From the IMG/VR virus record IMGVR_UViG_3300025168_000532, positions 1 to 27,207 of that record: DNA of 27,207 nt, one strand, 5' to 3'. This DNA is from a virus. Below, piece after piece: positions 374 to 25,247 of the stretch. The number at the start of each line of letters is the position of its first letter. The first letter of the stretch is position 1. Position numbers and translations under genes: made by a program. Below the pieces are notes generated by a model. It made no database searches, was not told the origin of the DNA, and was given only the letters and a program-made list of their open reading frames with translations.

Positions 374-3300
374 TAATCAGCGTGATCAAAATACTGTGGG
401 TAGTTTTTAAATACACTATCCAATAGTTTTAATCTCCGTAAGTACTGAGCTTCCTGCTTTTCATCATAGCGTTCTCTTAACTTTTTCTTGAGTCCTTTAT
501 GAGTTTCAGCAGGTGTCTCTGTTCTACCTGCCATGATTGTTTTGTACCTACGCTTACCGAACTGAGAACTCTTTACCAAAGAGGACATCTGTTGATCTGT
601 CATACCCGACATAGCTTGTAAATGTTTTAGGGTATGTGCTACTTCTTTATCTAAACGAATCCTATGATCTATTTCTTTATGGACAAGTTCCTTAACGTCA
701 TCGTCACCCATAGGGGCTCGTCCTAATACAGCATTCTTCCTGAGTGATAACTCTTGAGTCTCCCTCCTTATATCATATAGATATCTCCGTATGTTATTTG
801 ATAGGTCTAACGTAAATTCTTTGGCAGGTAGTATTTCTTTACCCATCCTAAGTAAAGCATCTTCCAGTTGGTTAGTTCCCATAAGGGTAGCTGCTTCTGA
901 TATAGCTCTGAAAGTCCTTGGTTCAAATGCTTCTTTCCATAAGAAGCTTAATCCTTTAGCAAAAGAATCTTCGGCTGTATCTCTTTCCAACCAGATCTTC
1001 TTATCTGTTTGTGGATCTCTATTATTTAGTAGGCTAGTAAATGCTCCTGCAAATATTTGTTGATCTAAAAATTCATCAGCAAATAAAGTCTTTGCAAAGG
1101 TTGCCCCCATAGAAGCAGCACTCTCTCCCTGTAATCCTTTCTCTAATGATCTAAGGAAAGGATCAACTATCAAAGAGTATGGATTGATGTACGTCATATC
1201 AATGGAACGATATTCACCATCCCTTTTATATAAATAGTAGGTATGTTTTCTTAGATAAGAAACCAGTGTCCTCCTTAATGCTTCATCTTCATCATCGCTG
1301 ATATCAGATAGCATCCGCACCACAACAGGCAAGAAGGCAGATGCTCCTACAATCGTACCGAAGTTACCTGCTAGTCTTTTGAAACCTCTCTTTCTTATGA
1401 CAGGGTTAGTATCATTTATCTCGTTGTATATTAACTTAATAGAATTAACTGTGATTCTAATTAACTCACCTTTGAATCGAATGAATGGTGCTAACATTAA
1501 TCCATAAGGAGAAGCCGCTAATCCTTTTACAAGGGGGCTTGCTTCGCTGTATGACTGGGCAGTCCTCTTAACTTTTTCAGCAGCTAAGAACATAAGCTCT
1601 GAATCTGAAACATCATATGGATTGTTTTCCATCTTAATGTCACGAGCTTCTTTCAAAACCTTTAGTTCATTTTCAAAGTAATAAATTTTATAGAAGGAAT
1701 CCATAGTAGCTGACGCAGATTTCAGACCCTTGAATAACTTTCCAATTCCCTTGTCCTCATCTTTCAGTAATCTCCTTACTACATTCTCCTCCTTATTTAT
1801 ATCTTTATGTGCAACTAACTCTCCAGTTATTTCATCTAACTCGTTGAGCATATCTTGTGGTGCAGTGTTACCAAAGATTAATTCGTCTAGCATCTTAGGA
1901 CGGAGTTCATCTTCTAATATGCCTAACCTTTCGAGCCTTGAATAGTAAGGGTCTATCTGTTCTGGTTCCATATAACCATCAAAGAAGAATCCTCTCTTCC
2001 TTTTCATTTCTTGCCACAGAGCTTTGGACATTTTAATCGGGGCTAATATCCCCTGCGCTGGTGCAAAGAATGCCATGTTACCAATAGCGTTACGCTCGTA
2101 GAATCCTATCGAGCCTAGTGTCTTAGCTCCCATAGCAGTTCCTGTAACTATACCTGCCCACTTTGTCATAGAGTTCGATACTCTTTGTACATCTGTATTA
2201 GTTACTTGAGATACATCATTACCCAATTCTTGAAGAGCTTTAGCTAAATCTTTTTTCACATACAAATTACGAGAACCTTTAGAACTTGCATACAATTTAA
2301 ATATATCAAACTCTGGTCTAGCTCTTGTTTTAAGATCTACCCATAAGTCTTTTTGTCTTTTATTCCCATTCTTATCTACCTCTTCAACATACCTTTTTTC
2401 TGTAGGCAGGTCTTTGAGTTGAGCCTCTGTTAGTATCCAACCATTCTCTGGTTTGGTTCCGAACTCTAACATATTTCTTAAAGCAGCAAAGTTAGCTGCT
2501 AAGATACCAGTTTGTATATACGTTTTGGATACTGCATCGAAGCCAGTGGTGTCGGCTTCCTTACCCATAAAAGCAACAAGCTCTTCTGGAATGTTTGCTC
2601 TTTGTTTTAATTTCTTAGCAGATATTGTAACTGCTGTATCTTTTGATCTATCAAATGTGTTAGGTCTTATATCTGTCCCAGCCCAACCTGCTTGATCTCC
2701 CTTCATCCTAGGATCATTTGGATTATACGAATTTAAAAAGTCTATCATCATTTGTTGTATGATGGCTGACTTCCCTAACATAGCTGGGTTATCTTTTACT
2801 TTATTTTCTCCCGCATACAACTCTGCTAGGGCTAAATCTTCAGCTTGCTTTTGAGTCTCTAAACCTTCTGCTGGTAAGGATATACCTTCAGGTAATTTAA
2901 AGTCTGTCGTATCTTTCTGTAAAAGAATCTGCCCTGCCCTTTCATTAATATAAATCTTTTTAAAGAACTTATAGGCATCCTCTCTTACCTCGCCATACAA
3001 AGGATCTTGCATTACTCTGGTAATATAGTCGGGCTCTGTGAATAATCTGTATGACGTAGTTATATAGACCTCCAAGTTGTTATCAATAGTAGCATTCAGT
3101 TTTGTATCTCCTGAATCAGTTAATGCTTTTTCCTGTATGGACTTAGACATCGCATCTACTTTTGCACGTAGTGCGTACAGGTGATTCGCTATTTCCCCTT
3201 TGGGAGTTCCATCTTCATTGAATCCTCCTAATTTTTCTATAGCATCATGTCTTCTCTTCGTAGCTTCTATCTTTTGTTTGGCATATGCTTTGTTATAAAC

Positions 3301-11539: not shown

Positions 11540-13834
11540 CTATCTTTTGTTATTCTTTTTCTTATTCAGAAGATTAGTTACTAATGAACCTATTGGTGGA
11601 GTTTTTGGTTTACCTGCTACTGCTGTTCTGTCGTATTGGCCTTCTTTGTTAAACGGGTATTCTGCACGACTCATATCAGTAGGTGGTGTGTTAGTAGATC
11701 CTTCTGGTAAATTCATATCTTCCCAATTATAACTATTGGCCGTTACATTAGCTGGTACAACAGCTCCTGCACTATCTACAGGAATAACTTGATTACCTTC
11801 TTTCGGCATTGACGAGAATTTATTATTTAAATCTGCATCTGTCGGTGTTTGGTTTACCGCTGTAGCTTTAGGCACAACAGGTATAGCTTTAGGTACTTGT
11901 GTATTTACCGCTGTAGCTCTAGGTGCTTGTGTATTTACCGCTGTAGCTTTAGGCGCATTAGGCACATCAGTAGTGTTTGGTGCAGGTAATCCATACCCAC
12001 CTTGACCTTCAGTAATAGCAACGTCCATAACACTAGGTGTTGGTGTATTAACTGCTGTAGCTTTAGGTGCAGGTGAACTTTTAGAAGTTCTATTGTATTG
12101 AGAACTAGAACCCCAATTTACTACAGGTTCTCCTGTATTTACCGCAGTAGCTTTTGGAGCTGCTCCTGTATTTACCGCAGTAGCTGTTGGAGCAGGAGTT
12201 GCACCACTACCTCTACTTCCCCCACTCTTACTATAAAACATATCAGCAACATCTTTTTGCGCTGCTCTCATACTAGCAATTTGTGCGTCTCTTTTATCCA
12301 TAGCAGCGGAAGCTGCTAATGTTCTTTGAGCATCTGTACCTGAAAAATTAGCAGCATCAGCAACACCACCATCAATAACACCTGCTCCTTTTCTATTACC
12401 CATAGCAGCCCTCCCTGCTTTATTTAAAGAGCTTCCTATAATTCGCCCTGTTGAATCTTTAATTACCCTACCAAAATTTTCTGTAAGTGCTTTACCATCT
12501 TGAGTTGGTCCTTGGAGTTCTTTACCTTGAATTATATTAGAAGGTATACCTTTTTTACTTTGTTCTATGAAATCTTTACGCTCACGGAAACGAGCTTCTG
12601 CGTTTAATCTATTTGATCGTTGCCTTTCCGCTATGTCAGCCTTACCTGCCCGATCCATTTCTTTTACTTCCTTCCTTGATCGTAGGTAACTTAATTCAGA
12701 ATCAGGGTCTGAACCTGAACCAGATCTTGTAGTAGCAGTAGTTTTTGGTTCATCTCCAGAAGTAAAGAAAGATGAAGTCGGTCTGTTGTCTGTTGTAGGA
12801 CCAAAAATTTGATCCCTTAATGCATCATTTATAGCTTCATTTGAAGCACTTTCTTCTGGGGATGTTGCTGTACCAGAAGCTTCTCCTGCTTTTCCTTTAT
12901 AGTAAGCAGCTCTTCGTTCGGGTGAAGCTCCTCTTAAAAGTTCTTCTATAGTCGGCCCTTGCATACCAGAGCCCCCTAAATTTTTTGATCCTTCCGTTCC
13001 TGATCCTTCAGCCTCTTTTTCTTTTTTGTTTTGGAGATATTTATATCCACCTACCCCTAAAGCAAGAGGTACAGGTGATCTTTTTATGATACCCTTCCCT
13101 AAAGGACTACTAAGACCTCGATATAAACCCCTAGTAGCAGCAGATAGACCTGCCTTAGTGTAACCAGTTAATTCAGCAATAGAAGGAGCAAGTTTTGGGA
13201 GCTTAGAAGCAACGCCTTTAGCACGGTCACCTTTAGTTTTTGGTAGTAAACCAGCATCTTTTTGAGCTTTATCTAAAGACTTCATATCAATCTTAGGATC
13301 AGCCTCAGTACTGGTGGTCCTTCGTTTTGGTTTAGGGGGTACTTTTTCCGTAGTTAAATCTTTTACATCACCAGTTTTTTTCGGATCTGTTTTAGAAGAA
13401 GTTTCCCTTTTCGGTTTAGGCTTACTCTTTTTATCTTTAAATTTCTTAATAATATCTGACACAAAATTGCCTATTTTTCTTTTACTCATTGGTTCTTTAC
13501 TAGATTTTTTAGCTAAAATTTTAGATCCTATTTTTGGAATTGCTCCTACTCCTGTTAGTAGTGAAGCAGCCGTTGTAGCGTTATCTGCTACCTCAACTGC
13601 CTTCCCTAATTTTTCATATCCCACTGCATCTTTATAGGCTTTGTCTGCTTTTATTTGGATTTCTTTAGCAAGATCTGCCTTGCCAGCCATTATTAATCTT
13701 TCTTGTTCGGCTGTCAGTGTCCCCTTATCATACGCATCAGCCCACCAAGGGGCTGCTTTTGAACGCCCTTGTGGCGATAGTGGACTTTCAAAATCCTTTT
13801 TAGGTTTAGGGCGTTCTATTGACGGGTAAGCCAT
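11540..13834 (-). CDS. Low-complexity virion-type protein with PxATAVNT repeats, 764 aa
   Basis: Unrecognised protein starting at an ATG (13834) 46 bases after the terminase stop; no clear ribosome binding site. Residues about 85-110 and 225-255 carry short hydrophobic Gly/Ala stretches (LLTGVGAIPKIG; PVPLALGVGGYKYL). Between them lies a very basic region rich in Lys and Pro (about 110-175), which could bind DNA or stay disordered. The central part (about 260-400) is Ser/Gly/Glu-rich. Residues about 548-665 contain at least six copies of a PxATAVNT-type element, partly spaced at exactly ten residues. No enzymatic motif is visible. Lying between the terminase and the 435-aa and 3276-aa proteins in the same operon, it is probably another virion-internal or injected protein with disordered linkers. 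A head or tail accessory role cannot be excluded. Confidence 0.6.
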   Translation of the reverse strand: MAYPSIERPKPKKDFESPLSPQGRSKAAPWWADAYDKGTLTAEQERLIMAGKADLAKEIQIKADKAYKDAVGYEKLGKAVEVADNATTAASLLTGVGAIPKIGSKILAKKSSKEPMSKRKIGNFVSDIIKKFKDKKSKPKPKRETSSKTDPKKTGDVKDLTTEKVPPKPKRRTTSTEADPKIDMKSLDKAQKDAGLLPKTKGDRAKGVASKLPKLAPSIAELTGYTKAGLSAATRGLYRGLSSPLGKGIIKRSPVPLALGVGGYKYLQNKKEKEAEGSGTEGSKNLGGSGMQGPTIEELLRGASPERRAAYYKGKAGEASGTATSPEESASNEAINDALRDQIFGPTTDNRPTSSFFTSGDEPKTTATTRSGSGSDPDSELSYLRSRKEVKEMDRAGKADIAERQRSNRLNAEARFRERKDFIEQSKKGIPSNIIQGKELQGPTQDGKALTENFGRVIKDSTGRIIGSSLNKAGRAAMGNRKGAGVIDGGVADAANFSGTDAQRTLAASAAMDKRDAQIASMRAAQKDVADMFYSKSGGSRGSGATPAPTATAVNTGAAPKATAVNTGEPVVNWGSSSQYNRTSKSSPAPKATAVNTPTPSVMDVAITEGQGGYGLPAPNTTDVPNAPKATAVNTQAPRATAVNTQVPKAIPVVPKATAVNQTPTDADLNNKFSSMPKEGNQVIPVDSAGAVVPANVTANSYNWEDMNLPEGSTNTPPTDMSRAEYPFNKEGQYDRTAVAGKPKTPPIGSLVTNLLNKKKNNKR
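11850..12192. repeat. Degenerate 30-bp coding repeats (PxATAVNT)
   Basis: The plus-strand core gtatttaccgctgtagct and close variants recur near 11853, 11907, 11937, 12046, 12134 and 12164. The 11907 and 11937 copies, and the 12134 and 12164 copies, are about 30 bp apart, giving a ten-residue period such as APKATAVNTQ then APRATAVNTQ. Other copies are separated by unrelated Ser/Pro-rich sequence. A further partly matching copy (KAIPVVPKATAVNQ) marks the C-terminal end. The repeats differ mainly at third codon positions, so the peptide rather than the DNA appears to be conserved. Confidence 0.85.
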
Positions 13835-13880: not shown

Positions 13881-15650
13881 CTAACCCAAAGGTTGGTTTG
13901 CTAGTACTCCTGTAAGGCTTTTCATAGACCTCCTGCGCCTTGATCCCTGATTCTTGTCTCCTAAATCAAGAGGCTCTACAGCTACAAGACCATGACGTTG
14001 CCTTGCGACATCAACACATATAAAGGCAGCATCGGCTAAGTCAGGGGATCTTCCTAAACGATTCTTGTAATCTGGTTTGGATTCAAGTTTCATTCTAAGG
14101 GTAGCACCTTTAACCATATCATACTTACGTCCTACAACTTCTTGTGCTAGATCATTATTGATACCATATAGCTGTTTAGTTCTACAAAACTCCTTACCTA
14201 CAAACCAAAGTTCAGTGACCCTGTTGACATATAGTTCATGTCCGACAAGTTTACTATTAGTACTAACCCTCTTTTCAGAAGCTTTACCACCGAATGAAAC
14301 ACGAAGAATATCATCACCAAACTCAGCAGCAAGAATATCAGCCAAAGGACTGCCAGCACCTGTGGAGTCGATTCCTAAATTGGACGGGAGTATCTTCCTT
14401 TTATTGCACTCGTCCTTTATCTGCTGAACAATCTGATAAGATCGGGGGATCGCTTTGTTGGTGGCATCGTCAGTAAGAGAGATAGCTTCATCTAGTTGGC
14501 ACACGAATTGTCCAGATTTATCATAACCAACATGCCCAGTATAAAGGATAGTCCTATCCCCACCATTTGTAAAAGCAGGGTCGCAACCAGCAATAGGGGT
14601 TGGTTTATCTTGCCACTCTATAGTGCCCATAGCTCCTGACTTAACCAACTCTGAGTCTGTATATACACCATCAGCCTCATCGGAATCAAAGAACACAGCT
14701 CGTACCATTCGATAGTATCCCCTACTTTCTTGCCCTAGCAGTTCCTTATCCTCTTCAATCTTCTCTTCTGTAGGCAGCCAAGGGTAGATTGTTTTCCCCG
14801 CTAGTATATTAGGGGATCGTTCCCCATCATACCTTTCATAAATACCACCCCACTTTGTCTTCCAACTATCTTCGGTATTTGGATCTATAGAATCCCAGCC
14901 CTGTGCTGGTTCACTCCACTCACCGAAAGCGTCCCAACGAGAAGCAGGGTTTGATAAACCAACTAAACTAAATGATGGGTTCTTTGATAGGTTAGATAGA
15001 CCAGCCTGTAGAATAGCAGTAGATAATTCCGAAAGCTCATCTGCAATAAGGATGACATTTTTTTGTTTGATACCAATGAACTTACCGACAGCTTCTCTAG
15101 TCTTACTTCGTTCTGCTGCAATCAAACTCAACCCAGCTTTTTCAATTAGAATATCGTTCTCATTTATGTAAGCAACATTACCAATAGAATCTCTTATCTT
15201 AAACGGGGCTCCGTCTAACACTGTTAGTAAACTAATAACAGAACCCCATATTCTTTTACGTGCCTCACGTAATGTAGTTGATGTTAGCAGCACTAGTGTG
15301 TCTCTCGGTGCAGCTAACCAGTTCAGGATTCCCCAAGCAGCCATAGTATGTGACTTACCAGAAGAAGCAGCCCCGCCAATAGATACATATTTATTTTTGA
15401 TAACTGCTTTTATCATACTCTCTGCCCAAGGATGTTTAACCATCAGAGGTTCAGGGAGTTCATCATTATTCCAAAGCTCATCACACAACCTCCAGAAGTA
15501 ATACTCTCTTGCTTTGTCACTCTTATGATTAGAAAAGCCATAGAGTAGGGCAGTTATATTATTAGTAGCTGCAATAGTTAAACCACCCACATCCATCTTG
15601 GATGTTTTTTTATCTATGCGGGGTTCATATATACGTAAGGTTTGTGTCAT
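13881..15650 (-). CDS. terL: Phage terminase large subunit, 589 aa
   Basis: This is the DNA-packaging motor: an N-terminal ATPase drives DNA into the procapsid and a C-terminal RNase H-like nuclease cuts the concatemer. The Walker A loop is GAASSGKS (residues 93-100), Walker B ends in IADE with D204/E205, and a conserved SNP follows near 233-235. The nuclease acidic residues fit D357 (GCDPA), D428 (LGIDS) and D537/D540 (SPDLADAA). The length of 589 residues is normal for the family. The ATG at 15650 has no evident ribosome binding site and opens the minus-strand late operon. Oddly, the putative small subunit is not beside it in the same operon but diverges from it across a 43-bp spacer. The terminase call is very secure; the packaging type (cos, pac or terminal repeat) cannot be read from this sequence alone. 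Confidence 0.97.
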   Translation of the reverse strand: MTQTLRIYEPRIDKKTSKMDVGGLTIAATNNITALLYGFSNHKSDKAREYYFWRLCDELWNNDELPEPLMVKHPWAESMIKAVIKNKYVSIGGAASSGKSHTMAAWGILNWLAAPRDTLVLLTSTTLREARKRIWGSVISLLTVLDGAPFKIRDSIGNVAYINENDILIEKAGLSLIAAERSKTREAVGKFIGIKQKNVILIADELSELSTAILQAGLSNLSKNPSFSLVGLSNPASRWDAFGEWSEPAQGWDSIDPNTEDSWKTKWGGIYERYDGERSPNILAGKTIYPWLPTEEKIEEDKELLGQESRGYYRMVRAVFFDSDEADGVYTDSELVKSGAMGTIEWQDKPTPIAGCDPAFTNGGDRTILYTGHVGYDKSGQFVCQLDEAISLTDDATNKAIPRSYQIVQQIKDECNKRKILPSNLGIDSTGAGSPLADILAAEFGDDILRVSFGGKASEKRVSTNSKLVGHELYVNRVTELWFVGKEFCRTKQLYGINNDLAQEVVGRKYDMVKGATLRMKLESKPDYKNRLGRSPDLADAAFICVDVARQRHGLVAVEPLDLGDKNQGSRRRRSMKSLTGVLANQPLG

Positions 15651-15655
15651 TTAAT

Positions 15656-15684
15656 TTGAAAGATGTGTAGATATATAGTATATA
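15656..15684 (+). promoter_or_regulatory. Candidate sigma70-like promoter in the divergent spacer
   Basis: TTGAAA (15656-15661) and TATATA (15679-15684) are separated by 17 bases, an ideal sigma70 spacing with a near-consensus -35. Initiation would fall around 15691, only a few bases before the TTG start of the HTH gene. The spacer is the only gap between the divergent late and replication blocks, so a promoter is expected here. The AT-rich sequence also allows chance matches, and a TATATT at 15681 is an alternative -10. On the opposite strand a TATACT could serve the terminase operon, but I see no good -35 for it. Confidence 0.35.
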
Positions 15685-15693
15685 TTAATTAGC

Positions 15694-16317
15694 TTGGCTT
15701 ATAAATCTAAAAAATCTAAACTGCTTAAACATGCTTTGGAAATGTATGAGCAGCAATATAAACTTGTTACTATTGCGAAGGAGTTAGGTATCAATACGTC
15801 TACGCTCCGTAGATGGCTTAGAGATGCAGGGGCTAAACCTAAAAAAGATCCACATGCTATCAACCCTCCTTTAAAAGAAGAAGAGGAAGAGAAAGAAAAG
15901 AAAGATCCATTGCAGGAAACTTTAGATGATAATTTAGAAGGCAAGACAGACGAAGCTATAAAGTTAGCTAAGATGGAGGCTCGTATAGAGGAAGACAAAA
16001 ACCTTATGGAAATAGCGGAATCGCAGTCATCTCCCGCAGAAAAGTATCAATCTTATATGGCAGCTTCTGCTATAAAACTACTGCGGGATAGTATTAAAAA
16101 TCTAAGGGGTCCGAGAACAGTTAAAGAATTATCTGAGCTAGATCAGCTCATAAGACGTAACTTAGGTCTGAACGCAAAGACATCAGGAGGTTCTGGTAAG
16201 TTACAAATAGATATAAGTATTTTAAATAACGCTAAAGCAGACCGAGGTAAAGGTGCTGTTAAAGTTAAAGAGAATAAAATAATAGACGTTGAGCCAGATA
16301 AAGATGATGGAACTTAA
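15694..16317 (+). CDS. HTH protein, putative terminase small subunit, 207 aa
   Basis: Residues 1-46 form a helix-turn-helix of the Hin/transposase-like type (LVTIAKELGINTSTLRRWLRDAG), the DNA-recognition layout seen at the N terminus of many small terminase subunits. A charged Glu/Lys linker (50-110) is followed by a helical region (about 115-160) that could oligomerise, and a basic, Gly-containing tail. TTG at 15694 is chosen because the product (MAYKSKKSKLLKHALEMYEQ) keeps the complete HTH; the first internal ATG (15742) would delete the first 16 residues. No strong ribosome binding site precedes either. It is adjacent to the terminase large subunit but divergently transcribed, heading the replication block. 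A transcriptional regulator is the alternative, since an HTH beside a divergent promoter would be well placed to control both blocks. Confidence 0.65.
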   Translation: MAYKSKKSKLLKHALEMYEQQYKLVTIAKELGINTSTLRRWLRDAGAKPKKDPHAINPPLKEEEEEKEKKDPLQETLDDNLEGKTDEAIKLAKMEARIEEDKNLMEIAESQSSPAEKYQSYMAASAIKLLRDSIKNLRGPRTVKELSELDQLIRRNLGLNAKTSGGSGKLQIDISILNNAKADRGKGAVKVKENKIIDVEPDKDDGT

Positions 16318-16564
16318 AACAAAAGAAGACATTGAAAAACCTATCCTACTTTTTGCAGGATTAGAAGATGCTTATATTGGTACAGTTGAACAATATGGAA
16401 GACCTCCTGTAGCCTGTTATTCAAAACAAATAGCTATTGATACTATACAAAAGAATTACAACCTAACCAAACAACAAGCTTACGAAAGATATGAATATGA
16501 ATATCTACAAACTAACTTTGAGGAGGGTACACCATGTTTCTTAGACGATCTCCTAAAGGATTGA
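16304..16564 (+). CDS. Small phage protein, paralog of the 24981-25247 product, 86 aa
   Basis: No known function. I place the start at ATG 16304, overlapping the end of the HTH gene by 14 bases; a TTG at 16289 would add five residues. The body has a pattern I recognise from small phage proteins of unknown role: an acidic start, a D/E-A-y-I-G segment (LEDAYIGTVEQ), a central Y-S or Y-D helix, a K/E-A-Y/E helix, then a G-T/Y-P-x-F ending (EEGTPCFL). The protein at 24981-25247 has the same elements in the same order (DEAFIGLA, AVYSIERC, EAEEYFWFNV, GKGYPIFI). It is soluble with no catalytic motif visible. Confidence 0.75.
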   Translation: MMELKTKEDIEKPILLFAGLEDAYIGTVEQYGRPPVACYSKQIAIDTIQKNYNLTKQQAYERYEYEYLQTNFEEGTPCFLDDLLKD

Positions 16565-16809
16565 TGTTTCCCAATAGGGAGGTTGAAGATGACCCTCGTG
16601 TAATGATACGGGTTCAAGAGTCTAAACACGACTTTACTTTTTTAGTCGAGTCTCGTTCAGGTAAATTCTACAGAGTTATTCCTAACTCTTCTAAAGAAGT
16701 TTACTACATACAAATGCTATTAAAAAATATAGATGTGTTAGTACCCGAAGAAGGTGATGGGTTAATCATCTCAGCCAAAGCTATAGAACATTGTGATTAT
16801 AGGAGTTGA
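16534..16809 (+). CDS. Small unknown protein, 91 aa
   Basis: Unrecognised. The ATG at 16534 lies behind a strong ribosome binding site (gaggaggg, seven bases upstream) located inside the end of the previous gene, with 31 bases of overlap. The product begins MFLRRSPKGLMFPNREVEDD and continues as an apparently beta-rich small domain (FTFLVESRSGKFYRVI) with an acidic C-terminal part. There are no cysteine clusters, membrane segments or active-site motifs. Its last 17 bases overlap the RuvC-like gene. Its position within a replication operon suggests an accessory DNA-metabolism or takeover role, but nothing in the protein itself shows that. Confidence 0.75.
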   Translation: MFLRRSPKGLMFPNREVEDDPRVMIRVQESKHDFTFLVESRSGKFYRVIPNSSKEVYYIQMLLKNIDVLVPEEGDGLIISAKAIEHCDYRS

Positions 16810-17299
16810 TAACGGACTTAACGGTGGGTTAGTCGCCATATCAAAACAAACAGGGGCTGTAATTGATAAGACAGTTATGCCTACACTCCATCGGTGTAAG
16901 AAACGAGAGACGGATACACGTAAAGTATATGAGTGGGTGATGGCATTAGAGTCAGACTTTATATTTGCTATTGAAGAACCTTTACACCACGCAAAGAGTT
17001 CACAAGCTGTACGCTCTATGGCATTATCTTTTGGTAAACTGTTAGGACTGGCTGAAAACAGAGAGTGGGATGTTAGATGCGTAAAAGTACACAACTGGCA
17101 GAAGTCTATGTTAGGTCACTTGTCACCACCTTACGATACAAAGAGAGCTGCATTAGGTGTCGCTAATGACCTAGCTCCTGAAGAGTGTTGGCTTAAAAGT
17201 AAAAGATGTTCTAAAGCACATGACGGAATGGTAGATGCTTTCCTTATAGCTAGATACATAAGAAAAGGATATGCTTTAGCAGGTTATGATAAGTTATAG
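16793..17299 (+). CDS. RuvC-like Holliday junction resolvase, 168 aa
   Basis: RNase H-fold endonuclease predicted to cut four-way or branched DNA created during replication and recombination, clearing it for packaging. The acidic active site is recognisable: D6 in IIGVDNG on strand one, E61 in FAIEEP, and H143/D144 with D148 in AHDGMVDAFLIARY. The length of 168 residues is typical for phage RuvC-like proteins. Translation is taken from GTG 16793, the position that yields the invariant N-terminal strand MIIGVDNG, overlapping the previous gene by 17 bases. It lies among replication genes before the SNF2-type helicase. Related RNase H-fold nucleases exist, but the spacing of the three acidic sites favours RuvC. 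Confidence 0.9.
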   Translation: MIIGVDNGLNGGLVAISKQTGAVIDKTVMPTLHRCKKRETDTRKVYEWVMALESDFIFAIEEPLHHAKSSQAVRSMALSFGKLLGLAENREWDVRCVKVHNWQKSMLGHLSPPYDTKRAALGVANDLAPEECWLKSKRCSKAHDGMVDAFLIARYIRKGYALAGYDKL

Positions 17300-17309
17300 A
17301 ATTTTTTCC

Positions 17310-17337
17310 TTGATAGTAATTCAAGTTCTTTTATGCT
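17310..17337 (+). promoter_or_regulatory. Weak candidate promoter before the SNF2-like helicase
   Basis: The 45-bp gap after the resolvase gene is AT-rich. TTGATA (17310-17315) and TATGCT (17332-17337) are 16 bases apart, a plausible but weak sigma70-like pair. Initiation would fall almost at the ATG at 17345, leaving no room for a ribosome binding site, and none is seen. It may be chance in AT-rich DNA. Confidence 0.2.
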
Positions 17338-17344
17338 CTATTAA

Positions 17345-18640
17345 ATGAAAGACCTATTCCCCGCCCAATCTAAAGTAGCAGATTTTTTTGAAGAGAAGCT
17401 TAGAGATAATAAAAACACACTAGACTCTAGCTCTGTAGGTACAGGTAAAACTGTAGTCGCAGCACACTTAGCATTACGTTTAGGTTGCCCTGTTGCCGTG
17501 ATGTGCCCTAAAGCTGTTATTCCTTCATGGGAAAGAGAGCTAAAGGAAGTAGGTATTGATCCTATATTTGTACTAAACTTTGAGAAAGTCCGTACTGGGA
17601 ACACGCCACATATGTCTAAGAGGGGAAAGAAAATTATGAACTGGAAGGTTCCTAAGAATACTTTGTTTCTTGTAGACGAGATACATAAATGCAAAGGGCC
17701 TTATACTCAGAACGCTCAACTCGTAATAAGCCTTATTAAACAAGGGTTTTTAGTTCATGGTATGTCAGCAACAGCATGTGAAGACCCTACCGAAATGAGG
17801 GCTATCGGATATATGTTAAACCTACATAGCCTAGCTAAATCAGAGAACGGTTTGTATAATTGGTTTGGTTGGATGAAGGCTAATGGTTGCTACCAAGATG
17901 AGTGGAATGGTTGGCATTTAGGGGCAAAGAAAAATCTACAACGTATACACGATAAAATTTATGGGGTCATGGCAGCTAAACTTACAGTAGCTGACTTCCC
18001 TGATTCATTCAGAAACAACAGGGTTTTTATAGAGCCTATGCAGTTTTCTGACTCTAATAAAATTATAAAGACCTACGAAAAGTTAGGATTAACCCCTCAG
18101 ATAATAACTGATTTGATAGAGAACGGAACGGTGGACGACAGCGATCATGTTATCGTAAACATACTTCGTGCAAGACAACTGACTGAAGCTATGAAAGTCC
18201 CTGACTTAGTCACATATACTCAAGATCTAGAGGAGCAGGGTAACTCTGTAGTTCTATTTGTTAACTTTAGAGATACTGTAAAAGCCCTTTGTGATCAACT
18301 TAACTGCAAATCAATAGAGGGGGGTCAGACAGTGGACGAGCGTCAAGCTGTAGTAGATGACTTTCAGAATGACAAGACAAGTATAGTTGTTGCTAACATT
18401 GCAGCAGGGGGTACTGGACTATCATTACACGATTGTAATGGGGATAGACCAAGAGTTAGTTTGATCTGCCCTTCGTTCAATGCTAAAGACTACCTCCAAA
18501 CTTTAGGACGTATTCACCGTAACGGGGCAAAGTCTGACGCTATACAAAAAGTTTTAGTTACTTCAGGGTCTATAGAAGAAAATGTTATAGACTCAATAGA
18601 AAGAAAAATACAAAACATAGAAGAATTACATGGTAGGTAA
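17345..18640 (+). CDS. SNF2-type superfamily 2 helicase, 431 aa
   Basis: ATP-dependent DNA translocase or helicase of the SNF2-related branch of superfamily 2, common in phage replication cassettes next to family A polymerases. In order: motif I Walker A VGTGKT (31-36), motif II DEIH (111-114), motif III SAT (141-143), motif V AGGTGLS (354-360) and motif VI QTLGRIHRNG (385-394) with the expected Gln and two Arg. Both RecA-like lobes are present; there is no extra chromatin-type or nuclease domain. At 431 residues it is a compact form. The 45-base gap upstream is one of the largest in the block. Its end overlaps the next gene by 11 bases. It probably remodels forks or opens the origin; the substrate cannot be read from the sequence. 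Confidence 0.93.
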   Translation: MKDLFPAQSKVADFFEEKLRDNKNTLDSSSVGTGKTVVAAHLALRLGCPVAVMCPKAVIPSWERELKEVGIDPIFVLNFEKVRTGNTPHMSKRGKKIMNWKVPKNTLFLVDEIHKCKGPYTQNAQLVISLIKQGFLVHGMSATACEDPTEMRAIGYMLNLHSLAKSENGLYNWFGWMKANGCYQDEWNGWHLGAKKNLQRIHDKIYGVMAAKLTVADFPDSFRNNRVFIEPMQFSDSNKIIKTYEKLGLTPQIITDLIENGTVDDSDHVIVNILRARQLTEAMKVPDLVTYTQDLEEQGNSVVLFVNFRDTVKALCDQLNCKSIEGGQTVDERQAVVDDFQNDKTSIVVANIAAGGTGLSLHDCNGDRPRVSLICPSFNAKDYLQTLGRIHRNGAKSDAIQKVLVTSGSIEENVIDSIERKIQNIEELHGR

Positions 18641-18917
18641 CTTAACAAAAAAAAGAGTAGGGACAGCTATAACTTTTGACCTTGATAAATGTTTTAGTAG
18701 AGAAAGATATTTGGACTACAGCCGTTGGGAAAATTCTGATCAAGTACAAAAAAAGTATATAGATAGCTTGAAAGAAAAAGTAATGAAGGTATGTGAGGAG
18801 CATCTTGATAATTACATAGAAGAAATAGAAACAGAAAGAATCTTAGAAAAAAAACGGCAGCTCGACCAGTTGATAAAATCATGTGGTTTATCTTTAGAAG
18901 ATTTAGAAGATGAGTAA
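18630..18917 (+). CDS. Small charged coiled-coil protein, 95 aa
   Basis: Not recognised. The 95-residue product starts MVGNLTKKRVGTAITFDLDK. It has a basic N terminus, then a predicted long helix from about residue 45 (rich in Glu/Lys, ending SLEDLEDE) suited to a coiled coil or protein-protein contact. The only cysteines are isolated and there is no membrane segment. The start overlaps the helicase gene by 11 bases and the end overlaps the DUF2800 nuclease gene by eight, so it is embedded in a translationally coupled series. A partner or modulator of the flanking helicase or nuclease is an inference from location only. Confidence 0.75.
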   Translation: MVGNLTKKRVGTAITFDLDKCFSRERYLDYSRWENSDQVQKKYIDSLKEKVMKVCEEHLDNYIEEIETERILEKKRQLDQLIKSCGLSLEDLEDE

Positions 18918-20028
18918 TCAACCAGACCATAGTAGTAGAGGACACGCTCCTTTCTCACCATCAAGTCTCAAGTACGTAGCAGGTTGTTCTGGTTACGAAG
19001 GTCGATCAGGTACAAACGCTGCTGCCGAGAAAGGTACTCGTATTCACGAAGCCTTAGAAGTTCGTGATCCCTCTGCCCTGCACGATGAAGACGAAGTCCT
19101 GATCTATGAAGCAATAGTAGAGCAAGAGGAAGCATATATCACTAAGTTTGCTCAGGGTTTAGAGTACAGGGAAGAGAATGAGATAGTGTTAGATGTTGAT
19201 CTTGATTCTACTAAAACATGGGGAACCTGTGATAGACTAATTACATTTGATAATAAAGCTATACTGGCAGATTACAAAACAGGTATCAGTGAGATAGATC
19301 CACCTAGAAAGAATTGGCAAGCAAGAGCTTACACTGTGGGAGCTTTCCAAAGATACCCAGAGTTAGAAGAAATAACTTTTGTGTTTTATATACCTGTACG
19401 TAATGAAGTTTTAGAGGGTAAGTTTACAAGAGAAGAGTTACCTATTTTGGTAAAGCAAGTAGCTGACGTAATACGAAATGGTGAGAAAGTGCGTCCTCAA
19501 TGGGATGGGGGTTATCCTGAAGTGGATGCACTTTCTCCTTCAGTTAACTGTAGGTTCTGTAAGCATGAAGATTACTGTCCATCTTTAGGTGGTTTAGCTG
19601 TTGAGATAGTACAAAGAATATCAGGAGAGTCTTTACCTAAAGAAGATATTCAAGATCCAACCGATCCTAACACAGTAGAACATCTTTATACGGTAGCTAA
19701 AGTGGTAGAGAATTGGGCTAAACGGATAAAGGAACGAGCGGTTACCTTAGCTAAAGAAGGTATGGAGTTTGAAAACTTAAAGCTTAGGTCTATGGGAGCG
19801 ACACGTAAGTGTACAGATAATATAAAGTTGATAGACATAGCTAAAGAACACGATTTAGAGCAAGAAGATTTACTCAATTTGATTAATATTCCCCTTAAAA
19901 AGGTAGCTAATGCTGTAGGAAATGCTGCACCTAAAGGAGAAAAAGGAGAAAGATCAAGATCTTTTCTTGACGCTGTTGAAAACAATGGCATCATAGAGAC
20001 ATCGGAAGAAAGGTTTACCCTTTCTTAA
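18910..20028 (+). CDS. DUF2800/RecB-Cas4-like PD-(D/E)XK nuclease, 372 aa
   Basis: Phage nuclease of the RecB/Cas4-like PD-(D/E)XK group, matching the DUF2800 family in layout. Motifs: H46 within AEKGTRIHEALE, D108 in GTCDRLI, D121 and K123 in ILADYKTG, and Q137 with Y141 in WQARAY. Four cysteines are placed as in iron-sulfur members: C26 (VAGCSGYE), then C214, C217 and C223 (NCRFCKHEDYC). The C-terminal third (about 255-372) is helical and probably specific to the phage family. It lies between a small charged protein and a probable ssDNA-binding-type protein, the usual DUF2800 neighbourhood in phage replication cassettes. Likely role: single-strand exonuclease or end processing in replication or recombination. 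The family is secure; activity and cluster are inferred. Confidence 0.87.
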   Translation: MSNQPDHSSRGHAPFSPSSLKYVAGCSGYEGRSGTNAAAEKGTRIHEALEVRDPSALHDEDEVLIYEAIVEQEEAYITKFAQGLEYREENEIVLDVDLDSTKTWGTCDRLITFDNKAILADYKTGISEIDPPRKNWQARAYTVGAFQRYPELEEITFVFYIPVRNEVLEGKFTREELPILVKQVADVIRNGEKVRPQWDGGYPEVDALSPSVNCRFCKHEDYCPSLGGLAVEIVQRISGESLPKEDIQDPTDPNTVEHLYTVAKVVENWAKRIKERAVTLAKEGMEFENLKLRSMGATRKCTDNIKLIDIAKEHDLEQEDLLNLINIPLKKVANAVGNAAPKGEKGERSRSFLDAVENNGIIETSEERFTLS

Positions 20029-20068
20029 AGCAAAAAATAAGAATAAGACTAAGAACAAAAATAAGACC

Positions 20069-20725
20069 ATGCCAAATACTAAAGTAGTAGAAGCTAAAAA
20101 AGAACAACTAGCAGCACCAGTAGCTGCTCCAAGGCTTGCGATATCAGCAGAAGATATCGAAATCCCAAGACTCAATGTTATACAAGGGTCATCGGAAATT
20201 GATGGTGACGAGGGAGCCCTCGTTATTAATCGTACTCACACAATCATGCCAACAGCAGGAACACTTTCAGTGATCCCTATCACGGCAATGAAAGGGTGGG
20301 CAGAAAATGTGCCTTTTGGTTCAAATGATATAGCAAGGATTGCTTACAGCCTTGAAGAAAAAACAGCAATAGATTCTGACTCTGAGTTTGGTACTATTGA
20401 GTTTGCTGATATCACGCTGTTGATTCCAGAACCAAAGGATATTGGTGAAGACGCAGCAGATGCGTTCCCATTCCCAATCGGTGAAACGTCGTACGCAATG
20501 GGTAAAATCCATGTTCGTAAGGCGGCTTACAGAAACACATATAAAAGACTTGGTTTGTTCCAAGCAATGAACCCAGAGTCTCCTTTGTGTGCTAAACATT
20601 GGAAATTCCAAGCGGATCAAGCGACAGCTAATAGGGTCAGTTGGTACATACCACAGATGACCGTAACTAAAGAAGATACTGATGAACAGCTAATAGAGTT
20701 CGTATCAAGAATTATACCTGCATAA
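20069..20725 (+). CDS. Probable ssDNA-binding-type replication protein, 218 aa
   Basis: I recognise the general phage family pattern but cannot name it with certainty. The body has conserved-looking blocks: IPRLNVIQGSSEIDG (about 33-47), ALVINRTHTIMP, SVIPITAMKGWAENVPF, and FPFPIGETSYAMGKIHV followed by AYRNTYKRLGLF. An Ala/Pro/Lys-rich N-terminal tail (1-25) precedes it. There is no nuclease or ATPase motif, and beta-strand-like alternation suggests an OB-type or similar binding fold. It occupies the slot between DUF2800 nuclease and DNA polymerase where phages of this kind place a ssDNA-binding protein. Its codons use more C and G at third positions than its neighbours, as expected of an abundant protein. 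ATG 20069 is the only standard start in the open frame. The preceding 40 bases are a purine-rich tract without a clear Shine-Dalgarno sequence. Confidence 0.6.
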   Translation: MPNTKVVEAKKEQLAAPVAAPRLAISAEDIEIPRLNVIQGSSEIDGDEGALVINRTHTIMPTAGTLSVIPITAMKGWAENVPFGSNDIARIAYSLEEKTAIDSDSEFGTIEFADITLLIPEPKDIGEDAADAFPFPIGETSYAMGKIHVRKAAYRNTYKRLGLFQAMNPESPLCAKHWKFQADQATANRVSWYIPQMTVTKEDTDEQLIEFVSRIIPA

Positions 20726-20727
20726 TT

Positions 20728-20928
20728 ATGAGTATTGAAGAATTAGATAATAAGATATCTATTATCCAAAATGAATTGGAACAAGTAGAAGAAATTACAA
20801 AAGACATAGTCTCTAAAGCAAGGGAGTTAGCACTCTCAGAGATTAAGATGGGAACTTTAATAGAAGCGTTTGAAGCGCAACTGAAAGTTCTACAGGAGCA
20901 AAAGGAGTCTCAGCCTGAGCTAATATAA
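20728..20928 (+). CDS. Small coiled-coil protein, 66 aa
   Basis: Unrecognised 66-residue protein starting MSIEELDNKISIIQNELEQ. Almost the whole chain is a single heptad-like amphipathic helix rich in Glu, Leu, Ile and Lys, so it should form a coiled coil or dimer. Its ATG comes two bases after the stop of the 218-aa gene, implying coupled translation. It is followed by the 107-bp structured region before DNA polymerase. An accessory to the neighbouring putative ssDNA-binding protein or polymerase is possible but not shown. Confidence 0.7.
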   Translation: MSIEELDNKISIIQNELEQVEEITKDIVSKARELALSEIKMGTLIEAFEAQLKVLQEQKESQPELI

Positions 20929-20936
20929 ATCTTGTC

Positions 20937-20968
20937 CCTTGCGGGTTTACATGGAGTTTCCCGCAAGG
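20937..20968 (+). promoter_or_regulatory. RNA hairpin 1, masks the leader ORF ribosome binding site
   Basis: CCTTGCGGG (20937-20945) pairs perfectly with CCCGCAAGG (20960-20968) across a 14-base loop, a GC-rich 9-bp stem in an AT-rich genome. The 3' arm includes the first part of AAGGAG (20965-20970), the ribosome binding site of the 18-codon ORF that follows, so folding would hide that site. No U-tract follows, which argues against a simple intrinsic terminator. The stem edge and loop contain GGTTTACATG, nearly repeated in hairpin 2. Confidence 0.7.
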
Positions 20969-20975
20969 AGCAGAA

Positions 20976-21032
20976 ATGAGGGGAGCCTATCTGTACGTCT
21001 TAGGTTTACGTGCAGGTAGGCAACTCATCTAG
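20976..21032 (+). CDS. Candidate leader peptide for DNA polymerase, 18 aa
   Basis: ATG 20976 is preceded at five bases by a near-ideal ribosome binding site, AAGGAG (20965-20970), one of the best in the window. It encodes MRGAYLYVLGLRAGRQLI and ends at TAG 21030-21032, three bases before the ATG of the DNA polymerase gene. The polymerase ATG has no well-placed ribosome binding site of its own, so ribosomes finishing this ORF could re-initiate on the polymerase. Hairpin 1 overlaps the ribosome binding site and hairpin 2 lies within the coding part. The peptide itself matches nothing I know. The ORF is short enough to be fortuitous, but its placement is hard to dismiss. Confidence 0.45.
   Translation: MRGAYLYVLGLRAGRQLI
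20985..21021 (+). promoter_or_regulatory. RNA hairpin 2, just upstream of the DNA polymerase start
   Basis: GCCTATCTGTACGT (20985-20998) pairs with ACGTGCAGGTAGGC (21008-21021) over 14 positions, two of them G-U in RNA, with a nine-base loop. It lies inside the 18-codon leader ORF and ends 14 bases before the polymerase ATG. The loop and 3' arm contain GGTTTACGTG, matching nine of ten bases of the element in hairpin 1. No U-tract follows. A translational operator or a ribosome-movable regulatory stem is the most natural reading. Confidence 0.7.
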
Positions 21033-21035
21033 ACT

Positions 21036-22799
21036 ATGGATACAATAGCAATAGATTTTGAAAGTTATTATGATAAGGAATGCTCTATACGCACCCTTGG
21101 TTTATTAGGATACTTTAGCCACCCTGAATTTGATGCATATAGAGTTAGTGCAGTAGGGGATGATGGAACAAATTTTGTAGGATGCCCCAAAGAAGATTGT
21201 GACTGGGGTGTTATAGAAGGTAATCGTGTACTATCACACAACGCACAATTCGACGAAACGCTTTACCTATACGGAGTGGATCAAGGTTGGTGGAAAAAGT
21301 TTGAGTACGCTGAGTGGGTATGTACAGCAGACCTAGCAGCTTACTGTGGGTTACCAAGATCACTGAAAGGAGCCACAATCACTCTTTATAATTTAGAGGT
21401 AGATAAGTCTACTAGAGACAACATGTCGGGTAAACGATGGGAGGACATGACAAAAGAATTTCAAGATGAAGTAGATGAGTACGCATTAAAAGACTCTGAG
21501 CTTTGTTTAAAACTATGGTTAGACTTAGAAGATAAATGGCCACAACGAGAGCGAGACATTAGCCTTGCTAATAGAAGATGCGTCCAAAGAGGGATACCCA
21601 TTGATATTAAATTGTTAAAACAATCCCTGATAACAATCAACGAACAGTTATTTAAAGCGGAAACCGCTATACCTTGGATTGACGATAAACCTATTCTATC
21701 TAGAAAAGCTTTTAACGAAGAGTGTACGAAAGAGGGTCTGGTACCCCCTGCGAGCCTAGCTCTCACAGATGAAGACGCTAACAAGTGGATAAAAGAACAT
21801 GAGGGTAAGTATGAGTGGATCTCTGCTGTGCGTAATTACAGAAGAATAAACTCCCTCAAAAGAAAGTTAGAGTCTTTTGAGTATGCCACTATGGGGGATC
21901 AAAGATACTACGGAGGTATACTGTATCACGGAGCCCATACAGGTAGATTTAGTGGGAGCGGTGGTAACCTAAACTTACAGAACCTACCTAGAGGTGAAAT
22001 GTTTGGAGTTAATTTACGGAGTTTAATATCTCCAAAGAAGGGTAAGAAGTTAGTTGTTGTTGACCTATCTCAAATTGAAGTCAGGACACTTTGTTGGTTA
22101 GCGGAAGACCAAGTATCCCTAGAAGAAATTAAACAGAGTGCTGACATATACGAAGCGTTTGCAATCCGTTTTGATAAGTGGGACAAATCAAAAGGGGTAC
22201 TAAAAGATGAAGACCCCTCACTAAGACATTTAGTTAAGACTATGGTTCTCGGATGTGGTTATTCTGTATCAGCAAAGAAATTTGCTTTGATATCTAACAT
22301 GGATGAGGAAGAAGCTGTCAAGGCCGTACATTTATATAGGACAAAAATGAAACGTGTTGTGTCCCTTTGGAACAAACTCCAACGCCAGTTGCACGTAGCC
22401 TATTCATTAGGTACTGATTTTGTTGTAGACTTACCGTCAGGTCGTTCGTTGAACTATGGTGTGATACAAAATCAACTTCAATTTGGTAGGAGAAACTACA
22501 TGGCTATGATCGCTAAAGGCATTAAGAAAATACCTGTAAAGTTATACGGAGGACTTTTATCAGAAAATGCATCACAAGCACTTGCAAGAGATATATTTTC
22601 AGATATACTCATCCGCCTCGAAAAACGAGGTCTGGGAATTATTTTTCACGTCCACGACGAAGTAGTTGTCGAGGTGGACGAAAACGAAGCAGAAGGAACG
22701 CTTGAGTTAATTATTCAAGAAATGAGAACACCTCCAGAATGGATACCTGATATTCCCCTAGATGCAGAAGGTAAAATTTTGGATAAATATGAAAAGTAA
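21036..22799 (+). CDS. DNA polymerase family A with 3'-5' exonuclease, 587 aa
   Basis: Replicative phage DNA polymerase of the Pol I/T7 type. The proofreading domain shows Exo I D7 and E9 (AIDFES), Exo II HNAQFD (68-73) and Exo III Y149-x3-D153. The polymerase domain shows TGRFS (302-306), motif A VVDLSQIEVR with D343, motif B with R397, K401 and Y409, and motif C HVHDEV with H540-D541-E542. At 587 residues it is compact, without a 5' nuclease domain. In motif B the position equal to E. coli Phe762 is Leu405; in viral PolA proteins Leu there has been linked with slower synthesis and temperate life style. The gene is preceded by the structured leader region and followed two bases later by the primase-helicase. 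Confidence 0.98.
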   Translation: MDTIAIDFESYYDKECSIRTLGLLGYFSHPEFDAYRVSAVGDDGTNFVGCPKEDCDWGVIEGNRVLSHNAQFDETLYLYGVDQGWWKKFEYAEWVCTADLAAYCGLPRSLKGATITLYNLEVDKSTRDNMSGKRWEDMTKEFQDEVDEYALKDSELCLKLWLDLEDKWPQRERDISLANRRCVQRGIPIDIKLLKQSLITINEQLFKAETAIPWIDDKPILSRKAFNEECTKEGLVPPASLALTDEDANKWIKEHEGKYEWISAVRNYRRINSLKRKLESFEYATMGDQRYYGGILYHGAHTGRFSGSGGNLNLQNLPRGEMFGVNLRSLISPKKGKKLVVVDLSQIEVRTLCWLAEDQVSLEEIKQSADIYEAFAIRFDKWDKSKGVLKDEDPSLRHLVKTMVLGCGYSVSAKKFALISNMDEEEAVKAVHLYRTKMKRVVSLWNKLQRQLHVAYSLGTDFVVDLPSGRSLNYGVIQNQLQFGRRNYMAMIAKGIKKIPVKLYGGLLSENASQALARDIFSDILIRLEKRGLGIIFHVHDEVVVEVDENEAEGTLELIIQEMRTPPEWIPDIPLDAEGKILDKYEK

Positions 22800-22801
22800 A
22801 A

Positions 22802-24988
22802 ATGCATTACAAATACCTAAAAAACCTATCCGAACATAAAACATACGCAGTCAAAGCCCTCACAGAAATTACAAAAGCTCCAAAAAAGTTTACAGACAAA
22901 ATACAAAGGCGAACGTGGTCTAATCACCCAGATACAGATTACGCTTTCTATTCAATGTTCGAGGGGAATGTAGGGTCTACACGTATATCAAAAAGGGGCG
23001 AGAATAAAGTTTGTGCTATGTGGGGCTTCGTTGTCGAATACGATAACATAACTCCTGATTGGGACACGTTAGTAGATGAACTATTAACCAAGTGTGGTCC
23101 GTACCCACCTACAGTGATAACAAGAACACCGTCAGGAGGAGTCCGTTTAATATGGGAGTTCGAGGATAAACTGCTCATAGATGACAGGATGTTTAAGAAT
23201 TTTATTAATAGGTTAGCCGATAGACTTAAAGTAAGGAGGTTATTTGCAGGGTTTGATGAGTCTTGTTTATTACCACACCAGTATTTTTACTTAGGTGAAA
23301 TAATACACACTACAAACAAAAGGATACCTGAAGAGCTCTACGTTAAATTATTAATTAAAACAGGTATTGAAAACCCCCCACAAGCTCCATCATCATTAAG
23401 TATCCCATTAGATGCTGTTGAAACGGAAGTACGTGAAAATACTAAGTATAATAGTAGGTGGCCTTATCCATTTGAAGTAGGTGTAAGGGGACCATTATTT
23501 TGGATTGATGACGGTATTGAAAGAGAAGGGTGTCAGATAACACAAGATGGTATGATCTGCTACTCAGATAGAGCAGGTAAGGGTTTCTTAACGTGGAAGG
23601 AAATATTCGGAGAAAAGTTTGTTGAAGACTACGAAAATAAAAAATTAGATTATCTCATAGAGCGGTACTGGTTTACAGGAAAAACTTTTTATACAAAAAT
23701 AAATGATCGTGTTTGTATGATAGATAAAGACCAACTCAAATTAGAACTAAGGCAAGCAGGGTTTAACAAAAGAGCAAGTGCAGGAAAGCCGTTAAGTGAG
23801 CTAGAGAACGCTGTATTAATAATACAACGTGATAGTCGAATTGACGAAGTAGCCCCTATTATATTTGATGAAGCTACAGTAGTTCAATCGGGACCAAATA
23901 AGATTTTAAATACCAGTACCTTAAAAGCAATACAACCTGCGGGGGATAGTGATAAGAAAAAGTGGCCTTTTATTGATAAATGGTTAAAGCAGTTTTTTAA
24001 AGATGAGCAGTCTTTAAACTATTTCTATGCGTGGTTACAAAGAATATATTCGGCTGTTCTATATAAAGAATCAAAACAAGGACACGCTTTATTATTAGTG
24101 GGGCCAACAAACAAAGGGAAATCTTTGTTATCTAATAAGCTTATAGGGGGTTTACTCGGTGGCTTTGCAGATGCCTCTGATTATTTAAGTGGTGACAGTA
24201 AGTTCAATAAAGAATTAGGTCAGGTAGCTGCTTGGGTTATCGATGATACAACCTCTGCTGCTTCTTTTGCAGAACAAAGAAGAGCTACTGAACTCATTAA
24301 GAAAGCGACGGCTAACCCAAGGATAGAGTACCAAGCTAAATTTGAAAACTCTATAACAATCAGTTGGGCGGGGAGAGTTATCATGTCTTTAAATATGGAC
24401 GCAACAAGCTTATCAGTTATACCTGCATTAGACTCAAGTAACAGGGATAAGATAATTGCCCTGCGTATATCAGATGATGCTTCTAGCGATTTTTCTAAAC
24501 TACTCAATGTAGTAGAAGCTAGTAATACGGCCATAGAAAGTACAATGGAAGAAGAATTACCACACTTTGCTCAGTGGTTACTAGAATACGTAATACCGAA
24601 AGACATAAAAGGGGACTCAAGGTTCGGTATTAAATCCCACATAGATCCTGAAATAGATGCTGCTGCATTTGCTAACTCAAATAGATCTGTGTTGATAGAG
24701 GCTATAGAATTTTTTGCCGAAACATTAAAAGAGTATGGATATGATAAGCCCGTATGGAAAGGGACTGTCGTTAAATTAATGGCTAAAATACAAGACCTAA
24801 ACGGAAACAAGCCTTTGAATAACCTAACAAGTAATATGGGTTGGATGATTCGTGGTATGCAATCACTGGAAGAAGCTAGTAAAGTTGACAAAGATATACG
24901 ACCTATAACTTCTGTTTATAAAAACAACCTTAGAATTTACTCTATTGATTTAGATTCAAAATGGGATATAAGTACTTCTGATGACTAG
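22802..24988 (+). CDS. Primase-SF3 helicase fusion, 728 aa
   Basis: Bifunctional replication protein of the D5/VapE-like phage type. The N-terminal ~190 residues fit an archaeo-eukaryotic-type primase: acidic pair E79-x-D81 (FVVEYD), SGG at 111-113 followed by a strand (VRLIWEF), and D152 in FAGFDESCL. Residues about 215-370 are a linker. The C-terminal half is a superfamily 3 helicase: Walker A GPTNKGKS (434-441), Walker B AAWVIDD ending at D481/D482, and motif C SLN (529-531), plus a helical tail. The usual second His of primase motif II is not evident (SGGVR instead of a His-containing strand), so the priming activity is less certain than the helicase. The ATG at 22802 is two bases after the polymerase stop. 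Confidence 0.9.
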   Translation: MHYKYLKNLSEHKTYAVKALTEITKAPKKFTDKIQRRTWSNHPDTDYAFYSMFEGNVGSTRISKRGENKVCAMWGFVVEYDNITPDWDTLVDELLTKCGPYPPTVITRTPSGGVRLIWEFEDKLLIDDRMFKNFINRLADRLKVRRLFAGFDESCLLPHQYFYLGEIIHTTNKRIPEELYVKLLIKTGIENPPQAPSSLSIPLDAVETEVRENTKYNSRWPYPFEVGVRGPLFWIDDGIEREGCQITQDGMICYSDRAGKGFLTWKEIFGEKFVEDYENKKLDYLIERYWFTGKTFYTKINDRVCMIDKDQLKLELRQAGFNKRASAGKPLSELENAVLIIQRDSRIDEVAPIIFDEATVVQSGPNKILNTSTLKAIQPAGDSDKKKWPFIDKWLKQFFKDEQSLNYFYAWLQRIYSAVLYKESKQGHALLLVGPTNKGKSLLSNKLIGGLLGGFADASDYLSGDSKFNKELGQVAAWVIDDTTSAASFAEQRRATELIKKATANPRIEYQAKFENSITISWAGRVIMSLNMDATSLSVIPALDSSNRDKIIALRISDDASSDFSKLLNVVEASNTAIESTMEEELPHFAQWLLEYVIPKDIKGDSRFGIKSHIDPEIDAAAFANSNRSVLIEAIEFFAETLKEYGYDKPVWKGTVVKLMAKIQDLNGNKPLNNLTSNMGWMIRGMQSLEEASKVDKDIRPITSVYKNNLRIYSIDLDSKWDISTSDD

Positions 24989-25247
24989 AGAAGAAATTAA
25001 TGAGTTCTGTGAGGTCAACGCACCTGACGAAGACATAATAGTTCCTGATGACTTTGATGAAGCTTTTATCGGGCTCGCACTAGAAGAAGATCCTACAAGG
25101 GCTGTGTACTCAATAGAAAGATGTATTAATATACTTACTAAAGAAATGAAACCAGATGAAGCGGAAGAATACTTTTGGTTTAATGTAGCAGGATCAATAG
25201 GAAAAGGTTACCCAATATTTATTGCTACCCCTGAAGAAACTTATTGA
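24981..25247 (+). CDS. Small phage protein, paralog of the 16304-16564 product, 88 aa
   Basis: Same unknown family as the protein at 16304-16564. An acidic N terminus (MTREEINEFCEVNAPDED) leads into DDFDEAFIGLA, then AVYSIERCINIL, a helix with EAEEYFWFNVAG, and the GKGYPIFI ending. This copy is closer to the form I know from other phages, where a Tyr-containing central segment and an Asn at the end of the last helix are usual. It overlaps the primase-helicase by eight bases and is the last gene of the plus-strand block, converging with the nuclease gene on the other strand (seven-base overlap). Function unknown. Confidence 0.8.
   Translation: MTREEINEFCEVNAPDEDIIVPDDFDEAFIGLALEEDPTRAVYSIERCINILTKEMKPDEAEEYFWFNVAGSIGKGYPIFIATPEETY

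Follow-up and report, generated by a model that had tools for sequence, protein, structure and literature searches.

The question raised by this locus is whether, and in what way, the RNA ahead of a viral DNA polymerase gene controls the amount of polymerase made. In an uncultured marine lineage, independent of T4-like phages, the polymerase gene of a long, gap-poor replication operon is preceded by a 107-nt gap that contains two strong hairpins and an 18-codon ORF. To our knowledge, detailed understanding of leader-RNA control of a replicative polymerase comes essentially from the T4-like phages. A sequence-only reading of the locus had proposed that the leader ORF, the hairpins and the polymerase gene form a regulated coupled unit, possibly an autoregulated one, and inspection of the sequence confirmed every coordinate it had given for the hairpins, the AAGGAG motif, the ORF and the gap. 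The window is the whole stretch of 27,207 nt that was analysed; its features relevant here are as follows.

20069-20725, plus strand: gene for a 218-aa protein of no known family, its position kept in syntenic relatives
20728-20928, plus strand: 66-aa ORF, the last gene ahead of the leader gap (ORF and synteny comparison)
20937-20968, plus strand: upstream hairpin (stem 1), 9-bp stem and 14-nt loop
20976 (ATG)-21032 (TAG), plus strand: 18-codon leader ORF, MRGAYLYVLGLRAGRQLI, unconserved and probably incidental
20976-20980, plus strand: 5' strand (AUGAG) of a possible basal helix P1, partner 21024-21028, weakly to moderately supported
20985-21021, plus strand: main conserved hairpin P2 (stem 2), arms 20985-20998 and 21008-21021, loop 20999-21007
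21024-21028, plus strand: 3' strand (CUCAU) of the possible helix P1 (covariation, shuffled-flank score)
21022-21035, plus strand: 14-nt tail from hairpin to polymerase AUG, with neither U-tract nor Shine-Dalgarno sequence
21036-22799, plus strand: family A DNA polymerase gene, 587 aa (PF00476, E 4e-29; phrog_17)

The polymerase gene and its operon

The gene downstream of the gap had been taken for a DNA polymerase, and the profile matches to PF00476 and phrog_17 place it in family A. The syntenic order is helicase, exonuclease, 218-aa protein, 66-aa protein, a gap of 56-180 nt that carries the hairpin, and polymerase; an ORF of about 50-115 aa occupies the position of the 66-aa ORF in nearly all syntenic relatives, and a primase-like protein is also encoded, with the polymerase, after the 66-aa gene. 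From its position the 218-aa protein might, at a guess, be a single-strand-binding protein. No close annotated phage relative was found, the top polymerase matches among GenBank phages being about 28% identical, and the leader DNA gave no match to annotated phages. Polymerase relatives are found in metagenome-assembled genomes of Verrucomicrobiota (L136 and L137, 60-62% identity) and in Akkermansia genomes (37-38% identity), which suggests a verrucomicrobial host. Elsewhere in the window, a 764-aa ORF on the minus strand (11540-13834) has repeated PKATAVNT peptide units around 12000-12320 and probably encodes a structural protein; a 3276-aa ORF on the same strand (370-10200), which covers more than one third of the contig, has low-complexity stretches (PEPEPEVEVEVEVE) and no PHROG match.

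Folding of the leader

Stem 1 is formed by CCTTGCGGG (20937-20945) and its full complement CCCGCAAGG (20960-20968), the AAGGAG motif (20965-20970) overlapping its arm, and stem 2 consists of 14 pairs, two of them G-U. RNAfold recovered both hairpins in the leader, with a folding energy of -49.5 kcal/mol; dinucleotide shuffles average -31.2 +/- 3.2, which puts the leader at z -5.7. When both strands of the whole window were scanned, the two leader stems ranked first among simple hairpins, with plus-strand energies of -21.1 and -16.1 kcal/mol and a runner-up at -13.8, and no comparable hairpin was found at its other gene boundaries. Below stem 2, the helix P1 would bring the window structure to about 19 pairs in two helices separated by an asymmetric GGGA/AA internal loop; it is paired in 58.8% of cells of an 18-leader alignment and scores 4.7 against 2.9 with shuffled flanks, so that its existence is weakly supported.

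At the gathering threshold Rfam 15 gave nothing for the window or for 17 relatives, and no match to the leader alone even up to an E-value of 5. A psbJ match to the relative L096 (E 0.001) lay on the minus strand, far under the gathering score, and was discarded. Promoter-like matches around the leader were not above those in shuffled sequence.

The leader ORF and the Shine-Dalgarno question

Under the coupling proposed earlier, ribosomes translating the 18-codon ORF would melt stem 2 and then start again at the AUG of the polymerase. The geometry fits this in the window and in its 96%-identical relative L023, where the ORF traverses stem 2 and stops 3 nt before the polymerase ATG (21036), but these two are the only leaders in which the frame is intact. 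In relatives of 82-87% identity a different ORF, of 8 codons, stands in its place and stops 31-34 nt short of the polymerase AUG; the 79% group has an ORF of 6 or 11 codons, and most other clades have no comparable ORF. Of 89 loci, 15 have an ATG-initiated ORF of at least 8 codons whose end falls no more than 15 nt from the polymerase AUG; the figure for shuffled leaders is 22%, and on this comparison the leader ORF was rejected as a functional unit. The expectation that its start, stop and ribosome binding site would be conserved therefore failed, since frame, length and stop all differ beyond L023.

The AAGGAG motif is likewise confined to the window and L023, within the stem 1 arm. The Shine-Dalgarno pairing energy of the replication genes (window 15650-25247) is not clearly above random, nor is that of their counterparts in the relatives, and since the genes of the operon make no use of Shine-Dalgarno sequences the motif is best seen as a chance product of the stem 1 arm sequence. 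The polymerase ATG does lack a well-placed ribosome binding site, as had been observed, but this is nothing special to the polymerase, because the other replication genes share the absence. Some Verrucomicrobia are among the bacteria in which Shine-Dalgarno sequences are scarce (PMC10783764), which fits the pattern of the operon. Coupling through the leader ORF is thus very improbable, because the frame is unconserved, is in no excess over shuffles and has no Shine-Dalgarno use behind it. What survives of the coupled unit is a conserved stem 2 RNA ahead of the polymerase; the leader ORF, the AAGGAG motif and the coupling are not supported.

A hairpin that is kept while its sequence turns over

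A scan of IMG/VR and of genome contigs yielded over 100 related loci, 89 of which, with polymerase identities of 50-100%, had a readable leader and formed the survey set. A hairpin lies immediately ahead of the polymerase AUG at about 85 of the 89, with stems mostly of 11-18 bp and about -20 to -30 kcal/mol, and with its 3' end mostly 10-35 nt (median 14) from the AUG. The stem sequences are unrelated between clades and have been swapped out clade by clade, so that the hairpin persists at the same place in almost every member despite complete turnover of its sequence. The exceptions number about four: L109 and L113 show no clear counterpart, in L093 a pseudoknot motif takes the place of the hairpin (see below), and the stem of L066 is weaker and imperfect. 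No such hairpin was found in the leaders of four polymerases at 35-40% identity (L122, L126, L130 and L138). Across 736 kb of relatives, strong hairpins on the plus strand number 80 in polymerase leaders and 21 elsewhere. The hairpin is structured, conserved on the sense strand, uniquely placed and syntenic.

Covariation was counted on an 18-row alignment of the closest leaders, which alone was used because a 22-row MAFFT alignment misaligns the divergent ones. In these 18 leaders 96.6% of stem 2 cells are paired, and double compensatory changes are found at 6 of its 14 pairs; for stem 2 and P1 together pairing is 86.7% and drops to 28-54% when the 3' partner is slid by 1-3 columns. Of the two stems that had been singled out for alignment, stem 2 thus shows the compensatory changes looked for, and stem 1 is replaced by unrelated hairpins. 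The position of stem 1 is retained by many relatives, its strength and sequence being highly variable, with a 4-bp counterpart in L024-type leaders and a covarying AGGYUGUG/CACARCCU stem in L035-L050. A terminal loop of the form (C)GUGGGG recurs in eight leaders with differing stems (L042, L045, L057, L058, L099, L101, L161 and L164), and may possibly be a protein or RNA contact.

An inverted repeat within a replication module could also be a DNA element, such as a protein-binding palindrome, a cruciform or an origin. Such a palindrome would tolerate G-U and A-C mismatches equally, and we therefore ran a strand-neutral scan for inverted repeats on every leader, in which G-T and A-C were scored alike. 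The 61 distinct stems contain 64 G-U and no A-C, against 43:33 in shuffled leaders, the related sequences not being independent. This asymmetry indicates that what is under selection is the sense-strand RNA and not a palindrome in the DNA; it refutes a palindrome as the main function and leaves a DNA-level element with a negligible probability. Compensatory changes on the transcribed strand are one mark expected of a cis-regulatory RNA hairpin, and stem 2 bears it. Regulation of the polymerase by the leader RNA is likely, because stem 2 is kept with compensatory changes.

Two clade forms of the element

The polymerase tree separates clade A, which includes the window, from a large sister clade B. 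The hairpin is also present in a smaller outer clade (L104-L111), which makes it probable that the element is old. Clades A and B have in common that a stable hairpin occupies the operon junction directly before the polymerase. Most clade B leaders have the form of an intrinsic terminator, with an A-tract, a GC stem and a U-tract (for example AAGCCCACCGCAGAG..CTTTGCGGTGGGCTTTTT in L136), and most clade A leaders are without a U-tract, being often able instead to form a short helix at the base, with an internal loop rich in purines.

The clade B form raises the alternative that the hairpin is an intrinsic terminator or attenuator, so that most transcripts would end after the upstream genes and the polymerase would be expressed from read-through. 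The canonical clade B leaders favour this, as does a hairpin-to-AUG interval too small for a promoter; however, the window and most of clade A have AACUCAUC or similar after an equally conserved stem, and a terminator scan makes no call on the window hairpin, whose tail AACUCAUC is without a U-tract. We regard this reading as rather unlikely. Alternatively, an RNase III-type cut at the hairpin might separate the upstream and polymerase messages and set separate lifetimes for them. The roughly 19 pairs and asymmetric internal loop in the window, the site exactly at the gene boundary and a structure that is kept while its sequence evolves freely are consistent with such processing, but clade B stems, mostly of 11-15 bp and with no basal helix, are short for the enzyme, and the P1 helix is weakly supported; cleavage is a tentative possibility.

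In a clade A subclade (L041, L042, L045, L053, L057, L058 and L161-L166) a UUCAUA-type stretch lies upstream of the hairpin and could form a helix of 8-10 bp over the polymerase start codon, which is predicted to be masked. The same masking was considered for the window clade and rejected, the mean of 5.9 bp being at the shuffled level. These data bear on the autogenous operator suggested by analogy with T4, in which the polymerase or another phage protein would bind the hairpin and repress its own translation. Gene type and position are as for T4 gp43, and the start-codon helix of the subclade and the recurrence of the GUGGGG loop are in keeping with it; but no loop or sequence is common to the whole family, GUGGGG is confined to some sublineages, and start-codon pairing in the window clade does not exceed that in shuffles, which makes an operator of this type improbable.

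A pseudoknotted RNA in sister-clade leaders

The gap of one sister lineage contains a further RNA, upstream of the hairpin and absent from the window, with the motif GGN-AWU-UGYGR-CGG[hairpin]CUGGUUA-CAUC-NCC-[stem]-GUAA-YCRCA-UAAAAG-[stem]. It is roughly 70-100 nt long and comprises a UGYGR:YCRCA pseudoknot, a GGN:NCC helix and two variable hairpins. Scanning viral contigs with a pattern in which the 3' strand of the pseudoknot was fixed to YCRCA and the 5' strand was free returned 119 stretches, among them L096:2850-2925, L059:2210-2280, L077 and L168. Over 81 distinct copies, six pair types occur at the third GGN:NCC pair and five at the two variable UGYGR:YCRCA pairs, with zero violations in either. 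This polymerase follows 35 of the 79 copies examined. Other copies lie directly after HNH endonuclease ORFs (L174, L178 and L186, with L183 and L236 arranged likewise), 2 nt ahead of a 541-aa ORF (L216) or ahead of a tRNA-like sequence (L218). A search of 289 genomes sampled from the phylum to which the L136 genome belongs did not find the RNA, and Rfam 15 gave no match to it; the RNA appears to be undescribed and, judged by its covariation, is a good candidate for a new ribozyme, aptamer or riboswitch.

Proposed function of the leader

We propose that the leader is a structure-dependent cis-acting RNA element that limits polymerase output from the shared operon mRNA, a reading to which we give about an even chance (roughly 0.5). 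Its functional core would be the hairpin at 20985-21021, recognised by shape and stability rather than by sequence, and most likely it would lower the amount of polymerase and set it relative to the upstream genes of the same mRNA; both the lowered output and the step responsible are what we infer from comparative sequence data. In clade B the hairpin, with its stem and U-tract, could act as a leaky intrinsic terminator. In the window clade post-transcriptional action is more likely, because the U-tract is absent, and it may consist in RNA processing or in holding ribosomes off a polymerase start that has no Shine-Dalgarno sequence and lies 14 nt downstream. Because the window hairpin lacks a U-tract and drew no terminator call, a single mechanism across the clades is unproven.

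A more specific proposal, which we consider speculative and rather doubtful, is that a shape-only hairpin set against the 30S footprint gates replicase translation in non-Shine-Dalgarno hosts, and that in sister lineages its place has been taken, or its action complemented, by a terminator, by a helix masking the start codon or by the pseudoknotted RNA, which might sense a metabolite or self-cleave. For the element as a whole, the hairpin suggests that the RNA serves as a switch or a brake in polymerase synthesis, and the balance of the polymerase against other replication proteins in Shine-Dalgarno-less phages becomes a directly testable question.

Comparison with known systems

In T7, RNase III cuts hairpins between the early genes and so separates their messages. 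The element described here resembles those sites in being a structure-defined hairpin at an operon gene boundary, with an asymmetric loop in the window clade, and differs from them in the short stems of the sister clade and in that cleavage is predicted at most. The gp43 operator hairpin of T4 lies about 40 nt upstream of the gene 43 start; its length is 18 nt in T4 and 16 nt in RB69, the two sharing their top 10 bases, and the operator extends across the ribosome binding site (PMC3014915). Here the polymerase gene has no Shine-Dalgarno sequence for an operator to overlap, and the loops differ across the family, with none conserved to be read by the polymerase. The T4 polymerase belongs to family B and the present one to family A, with stems of 11-18 bp and free sequence; the likeness to the T4 and RB69 operators is that of an mRNA hairpin just 5' of a phage DNA polymerase start. 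Intra-operon terminators and attenuators differ from the window clade, which has no U-tract, and from an element whose position is fixed near the downstream start codon, and are matched by clade B in its A-tract, GC stem and U-tract.
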